Part shown: piece after piece, positions 1-473 of the stretch | How positions within the stretch are numbered: the stretch's first letter is position 1 | Layout: each line of letters begins with the position of its first letter | Origin: Phycisphaerae bacterium | GTDB taxonomy: Bacteria; Planctomycetota; Phycisphaerae; JAAYCJ01 | Length of the DNA stretch: 33,680 nt | Assembly: GCA_012729815.1 (NCBI GenBank) | Contig: JAAYCJ010000349.1 | Span: 1 to 33,680 of the forward strand | Direction: 5' to 3' | Program-made: the position numbers and the translations under genes | Notes under the pieces: model-generated | Database searches by the model: none | Seen by the model: only the letters and a program-made list of their open reading frames with translations | What the model was told of the DNA's origin: nothing

Positions 1-115
1 GAACGCGGCTTGCAGCCCCGATTTCCCGCACTAAGCACGGGGCCTGCGTGATCTCCAGCGGCCCCTCGGTCTTCGCCATGTCTTGGACCATCGTCCTGTA
101 CTGCCACGGCTGCAT
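1..115 (-). CDS. Partial small ORF at the left edge, possible excisionase/HTH protein
   Basis: An open frame begins at an ATG at 115, preceded by a GGAG nine bases upstream, and runs off the left edge of the window without a stop. The visible 38 residues contain a stretch (KTEGPLEIT followed by CLVREIGAAS) that loosely resembles the start of small helix-turn-helix excisionase-like proteins. This resemblance is weak and only the N-terminus is visible. The frame follows the integrase-tail stop at 158 on the same strand, 42 bases away, which would fit a mobile-element end. ATGs at 91 and 79 are alternative starts. No function is assigned with confidence. Confidence 0.28.
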   Translation of the reverse strand, partial: MQPWQYRTMVQDMAKTEGPLEITQAPCLVREIGAASRV

Positions 116-157
116 GTCCTGTACTCCAACCCGTCGCTCTGGTCGCCCCACCGTTGG

Positions 158-430
158 CTACGTCTTGACCGACTGGACCATCGCCAGGATCGCCGCTTTG
201 ATCGGGGCAGGGAGATTCCCCCAGGCCTGAACAACCTGGACCAAGTCCCCTTCTATGGGCGGACCTTCAGGGCTGTTGTTGTCACAGTTGTTGTCACTCG
301 TGCTGGTCTTGTTGTAAGTCCCTGCGGTATCGCCCTCTACGGAATTGCCGTCCTGACTTCTAATCAGCAGATCGCAGGTTCGAGTCCTGCCAGGCGCGGT
401 TTTTCCTGTCGCGTTTTTTGCCTGGTTTGT
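158..430 (-). pseudogene. Recombinase C-terminal tail reading antisense through a tRNA fragment
   Basis: The frame is open for 90 residues between stops and has no ATG, GTG or TTG start. Its first part is the antisense of the tRNA-Arg fragment and gives the peptide GRTRTCDLLIRSQ, a well-known tRNA-antisense signature. Its last part, after an acidic Asn-rich linker, reads VVQAWGNLPAPIKAAILAMV before the TAG at 158-160. That hydrophobic ending with W, P and alternating I/A resembles the C-terminal tails of planctomycete tyrosine recombinases whose genes run into a tRNA. The catalytic body is absent: to the right lies an unrelated plus-strand gene. I infer a tail separated from its integrase by integration at the tRNA. 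It may be untranslated, and the family match is from memory, not from a search. Confidence 0.42.
353..398 (+). tRNA. 3' fragment of tRNA-Arg(UCU), likely attachment site
   Basis: The segment has a four-pair anticodon stem (CTGA/TCAG), loop CTTCTAA with anticodon TCT at 359-361, variable loop AGATC, a perfect T arm GCAGG-TTCGAGT-CCTGC and the acceptor 3' strand CAGGCGC with discriminator G at 398. No CCA is encoded. The 5' half is missing: no GCGCCTG acceptor strand or D arm lies upstream, and the outermost anticodon pair (352/368) is C-C. Similarity to a tRNA therefore stops at about 353. A 3'-only fragment starting in the anticodon arm is the usual product of integration into a tRNA gene. 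It predicts an intact tRNA-Arg(UCU) left of the window and element DNA between the two. A T-run follows at 400-404. Confidence 0.75.
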
Positions 431-473
431 CTATTCTTGGGCCGTTTCGGGTTTGAAGGAGACGGCGTTCATT

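Follow-up and report, generated by a model that had tools for sequence, protein, structure and literature searches.

In classical tRNA-targeting elements, the integrase gene lies beside the target tRNA gene and stops before the attachment core, with the 3′ half of the tRNA present as a direct repeat and the tRNA itself rebuilt. In some earlier phage cases, attP lies at the very end of int; these cases were not found in the present literature search. Whether a tyrosine integrase integrates or excises is usually put down to the action of a separate small protein. No bacterial integrase with a tail cut off by integration was found in this search, which was mostly confined to papers outside subscription. 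Self-disrupting (suicidal) integrases are described as exclusively archaeal in the sections of a 2021 review consulted here, with archaeal SSV-type integrases being cut between an N-terminal part and a catalytic C-terminal part (PMC8371274). In the integration-dependent immunity of mycobacteriophages, as outlined in the excerpts used, attP is located in the repressor gene, and integration removes an ssrA-like degradation tag (PMC9262239).

The stretch of DNA analysed here (the window; 33,680 nt from a Phycisphaerae bacterium) is an entire contig, C349, of a 5.47-Mb assembly of 367 contigs, with base 1 being the contig end. Very probably, the beginning of the window is the far end of an element that has integrated into tRNA-Arg(UCU), with the integrase gene of this element having the order body–core–tail and being cut on integration. 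An earlier note, made from the letters alone, had taken a short segment of the window (353–398) for the 3′ half of tRNA-Arg(UCU) lacking its 5′ half, and this reading was borne out both directly, by an anticodon arm with the stem halves CTGA and TCAG around the loop CTTCTAA (Table 1), and by comparison of positions 340–402 with intact tRNA genes of relatives, the best match being tRNA-Arg(TCT) (90% over 42 nt, E = 2.8e-10). Because of this match, the tRNA-like stretch is not attributable to chance. No tRNA was called in the window by ARAGORN, and the Rfam tRNA model gave the remnant 23.3 bits, below the gathering score of 29, because the 5′ half misfits. Among the 29 retained loci of relatives (L046–L074), ARAGORN called 17 tRNA-Arg(TCT), five Arg(TCG), four Lys(CTT), and one Arg(CCT), with none called in two; one of the 17 Arg(TCT) loci (L053) is itself a tRNA remnant with a tail. 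The segment 353–398 would represent the duplicated attachment core at the far end of the element.

Table 1. Features assigned in the window and the basis of each assignment
Feature	Positions	Strand	Basis
tRNA-Arg(UCU) remnant (anticodon arm, T arm, 3′ acceptor)	353–398	+	direct reading; tRNA-Arg(TCT) of relatives; sub-threshold Rfam match
Anticodon TCT	359–361	+	direct reading; in loop 357–363, stem 353–356/364–367
Putative detached integrase C-terminal segment (linker and conserved tail)	161–352	-	open frame 161–430; tail family; stop at 158–160
Conserved tail motif xxxPDLxxVVxAWxxLPxPIKAGILAMVxA, predicted helical hairpin	161–259	-	alignment A1; structure model
Putative end of integrated element	1–352		integrase and tail of relatives enclose the element; contig end at base 1
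Putative beginning of chromosomal DNA past the core	399–452		inference

The open minus-strand frame of 90 codons runs antisense to the remnant, which it crosses as PGRTRTCDLLIRSQ (read from 430 towards 161), and then continues as VVQAWGNLPAPIKAAILAMVQSVKT to the stop, with its end reading ...AWGNLPAPIKAAILAMVQSVKT*. Both the antisense frame and the peptide named in the earlier note were thus found as described, with one small correction, namely that the true C-terminus is ...LAMVQSVKT* and not ...LAMV. Just past the core lies a long plus-strand gene (453–2054; 533 aa counted from TTG), no homologue of which was found in two same-family genomes in a search for an empty site.

The architecture is seen most clearly in relatives. 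In all 21 pairs with both ends located, a tRNA or tmRNA direct repeat joins the integrase body to the tail in frame and without a stop (12/12 in a first set, and 8/8 plus 1/1, at L226, in a second), the chance of an in-frame joint being about one in three per pair. The first 12 pairs were picked, in long-contig genomes, for a nearby same-strand integrase past the tail, a choice that biases the pairing but not the frame; three of the 21 pairs, all at tRNA-Ala, are closely related. Of sixteen genomes with fetched regions, twelve were joined first; of the other four, one (G263) was paired later and two (G365 and G396) were left unpaired. The second set comprised the 34 remaining tails with E ≤ 1e-6 whose genomes have no more than nine contigs; on the element side of each, about 19 kb was fetched (15 kb in one case). 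A partner was recognised for nine of these tails, all nine in frame; the other 25 had no recognised partner in the fetched stretch because the element is longer, it is decayed, or the integrase is too distant. The joined frames measure 486–771 aa, except in G257 (245 aa), where the 5′ part of the integrase is broken. All three frames are used at the T-loop (11, 7, and 3 of the 21), and the targets comprise tRNA-Ala, Lys, Arg(CCT), Arg(TCT), SeC, Gly(CCC), Gly(TCC), Val(GAC), Val(CAC), Ser, Glu, Leu(TAA), and Leu(CAA), as well as tmRNA; because three frames and many targets are used, a shared tRNA frame does not explain the joints.

In the nearest case, G295, the element is 6.2 kb long, lies in tRNA-Arg(TCT), and has a repeat of 59 bp; its frame through the tRNA, PGRIRTYDLRIRSP, is the same as that of the window, PGRTRTCDLLIRSQ. 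The Phage_integrase domain is complete upstream of the core (residues 210–379 of 480 in G295), and a domain scan of two integrase bodies matched PF00589, with PF16795 not listed. Since the joints are in frame through the core repeat, the integrase gene of these relatives contains attP, at a point C-terminal to the catalytic domain, and integration exchanges the tail for non-conserved residues encoded by the host. At the integrase end, 18 of the 21 relatives have an intact tRNA and two more a tmRNA, so that 20/21 combine a duplicated tRNA 3′ part with an intact tRNA or tmRNA on the integrase side, as in tRNA-targeting elements, as against an intact tRNA at the tail end in 2/21. The exception at the integrase end, G071, is a tandem, in which the integrase lies directly against a second element's tail, that tail having another frame, and its own tail lies 28 kb away, in frame; the foreign tail being out of frame and its own tail in frame, this tandem serves as a natural control. 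The proposal in the earlier note that the integrase gene crosses the tRNA core, with a swap of its C-terminus, finds strong support in the family (21/21, including G295 at tRNA-Arg(TCT)) and is unconfirmed in the window's own genome.

Some further arrangements were observed among the relatives. The two elements of G071 (L132/L133; G071:C18:907000-940000) lie in tandem at a tRNA-Gly sequence. In L124 and L125 (from G014 and G005), a whole tRNA-Ala(TGC) is present at both element ends, the core at the tail end being a complete tRNA gene. In L232 (G543:C1:3626100-3646000), a tail lies near one of two copies of a tRNA-like 59-bp repeat (94.9%), which are separated by about 18.5 kb, and no recognised integrase was found at this locus.

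The tail is a genuine module without an earlier name. With the window's tail as a query, a match was obtained in 136 of the 397 genomes of the class (E ≤ 0.01), and a model built from 25 tails (consensus PDLxxVVxAWxxLPxPIKAGILAMVxA) found one in 58 of 392 genomes across the phylum (E ≤ 1e-6), with several tails in one genome of the planctomycete family Gemmataceae; in another phylum, that of a Rubrobacter-labelled genome, the tail was found in 0/198 genomes, an empty answer that by itself shows little. The matches nearly always lie in short frames apart from any integrase, and among the phylum matches listed no frame exceeds 390 aa, the integrase plus the tail needing 500–600 aa. Searches with the tail gave no match at E ≤ 1 in Pfam and NCBIfam, none among PDB sequences, and one PHROG at E = 0.42, and neither a tail nor a close relative of the integrase was found in virus, plasmid, and phage collections. 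Viral matches to the window peptide turned out to be ordinary tRNA-Arg genes and not tails. A structure model based on three sequences (77 aa, mean pLDDT 57) predicts a helical hairpin of moderate confidence, with disorder elsewhere; the helices span residues 49–55 and 62–74, and the block means of pLDDT are 76 and 80 over residues 51–70. The conserved part, a 33-residue W..LP helical hairpin, is followed by variable residues, and the tail ends differ in alignment A1 and in other frames.

Among 84 distinct tails flanked on each side by 300 bp or more (leaving out the window's own, which has less than 300 bp beyond it), 48 have tRNA-like DNA in the 400 nt before the tail and one has it after the tail, the reference being 85 tRNA genes from loci L005–L093, some of which had been chosen because they resemble the window's core. 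The 48 matches are antisense in 37 cases and sense in 12, with one case being both; the antisense matches usually span from the 3′ end of the tRNA to about position 24–31, where the anticodon arm begins, and 34 of the 37 fall within the open frame of the tail. A tRNA in the sense direction before the tail is seen in L210 (G365:C1:3538700-3558600) and in 12 of the 84 tails, suggesting that some elements have a core of the opposite orientation, with an intact tRNA beside the tail.

Body and tail were also found in one uncut frame in five places (eight loci, some overlapping). The clearest of these, in G679 (L186), contains the catalytic motif, the tRNA-like GEGGIRTPGGLL, and the tail within 390 aa, with a decayed N-terminus; a complete uncut gene of 500–600 aa was found in none of the 234 loci scanned. 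In L141 (G012:C109:9500-14500), about 50 codons separate body and tail, which share a frame that contains one stop, and no tRNA core lies between them; this arrangement is probably an uncut relic, and G012 was left out of the 21 pairs. Across the 25 rows of aligned tails, codons vary at invariant positions, with five at Leu16, four at Pro17, and four at Ala26; because invariant residues are kept with varied codons, the tail is under selection as a protein, even though integration parts this segment from the rest of its gene. Among three related tails only, 20–26 nonsynonymous as against 8–12 synonymous codons were counted. The simplest explanation for the conservation of the tail would be that selection acts on the gene as it is fused in the circle.

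In the window's own genome, the other end of the element was not found. The earlier note had expected an identical 46-nt core elsewhere, and the sole other match in the genome is a tRNA-Arg(CCT) on C70 at 79%; it had also placed an intact tRNA-Arg(UCU) and an integrase body upstream, neither of which is present in the assembly, the window beginning at a contig end. The 367 contigs yielded no second copy or homologue of the tail and no integrase of the tail family, the two Phage_integrase matches both lying at other loci (one, fully read, is XerC/D-like by inspection). Of the 39 tRNAs in the assembly, none is tRNA-Arg(UCU), which is weak evidence because other expected tRNAs are missing as well; this is consistent with, and does not prove, the loss of a contig carrying the other end. 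With the integrase and the intact tRNA-Arg(UCU) missing from the assembly, the reading of the window thus draws on the evidence from the family, and the rest of the element would lie on a contig missing from the assembly.

The same observations might be accounted for by a dead remnant, of which only the far end (tail and core) is left, with the rest deleted and nothing switched in its own genome. An assembly without an integrase of the tail family fits such a remnant, as do the many tails of relatives for which the fetched stretch yielded no recognised integrase (25/34). Nevertheless, this explanation is rather unlikely, in that the window's tail is open and keeps every invariant residue of alignment A1, and a contig ending inside the element is what one would expect if an intact element or tRNA gene interrupts the assembly.

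The preferred reading, a body–core–tail integrase gene cut on integration, implies the following sequence of events. In the circular element, the integrase gene would have the order body, core (tRNA in antisense), and tail, and the crossover would fall inside this gene, past the catalytic domain. In the integrated state, the integrase body would point into the rebuilt tRNA gene and end in arbitrary, non-conserved residues encoded by the host, and the conserved tail would be stranded at the opposite end of the element, 161–352 in the window being the last part of the integrase gene. Excision would rejoin body and tail.

As far as the sections consulted describe the archaeal SSV-type integrases (PMC8371274), the present family resembles them in that a tyrosine recombinase carries the attachment site in its own gene, which is cut by integration (21/21 relatives), and differs in that the catalytic domain remains whole and only the C-terminal tail is lost. 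Further differences are the bacterial carriers (one being a Gemmataceae bacterium) and the match of two bodies to PF00589 rather than Phage_integr_3 (PF16795). From classical tRNA-targeting elements, which share the placement of the integrase, the repeat, and the rebuilt tRNA, the family differs in that the integrase gene runs through the attachment core. An architectural by-product, in which attP lies in the gene so as to move enzyme and site as a unit and the tail only stabilises the protein, is the view taken of the archaeal suicidal integrases in the parts of the review consulted (PMC8371274); the integrated form would be dead until another copy helps. For the present family this account appears doubtful, given that the integrated body retains the whole catalytic domain, unlike in the archaeal split.

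The likeness to mycobacteriophage immunity, within the excerpts of the source used (PMC9262239), lies in an attP within a coding sequence, a tRNA attB (tRNA-Arg in the example), and a changed C-terminus, with the gene cut here being a tyrosine integrase instead of a repressor. Since the same logic of an att site in a coding region, a tRNA target, and a lost C-terminus operates in those repressors, the tail might mark the enzyme of the free form to be degraded or to bind a partner, and tail loss would then alter the amount of enzyme and not the direction of the reaction. Such a role is improbable: the conserved part is the W..LP helical hairpin and not an ssrA-like end, and by inspection the lost C-terminus is unlike the ssrA-like tag of the excerpts, the window ending in QSVKT and other ends varying. 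A spurious antisense frame in a degenerate tRNA without any link to an integrase is hardly credible, even with open antisense frames being common in tRNA genes, in view of the phylum-wide conservation of the tail, its 0/198 occurrence in another phylum, and the 21/21 in-frame joints.

For the body–core–tail gene, a tail swap acting as a switch, already raised in the earlier note, is plausible. We infer that the full-length enzyme would be integration-proficient and the tailless enzyme inactive or biased, with tail loss directing the reaction. In its fullest form, given somewhat less than an even chance, the tailed enzyme from the circle would integrate, and the tailless one could not simply reverse the reaction or would only excise, placing the control of direction in the integrase itself across the phylum; the integrase would then, with the same reservation, sense by way of its coding sequence which state its own DNA is in. 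Contrary to a pure direction switch, an ordinary excision factor may exist: the element of G104 encodes an AlpA-like helix-turn-helix protein, along with an AAA_25 ATPase.

Overall, in related elements of the phylum, integration strips a conserved tail from the enzyme that catalyzes it, as a possible built-in switch, and the choice of direction may be written into the gene, with the tail attached to the enzyme only in the free form. If true, this would extend self-cutting integrases to bacteria, provide a natural pair of tailed and tailless enzymes at many tRNA targets, and explain why short orphan frames occur close to the tRNA genes of planctomycetes. The joint between tail and body would also offer a simple means to pair element ends in fragmented assemblies.
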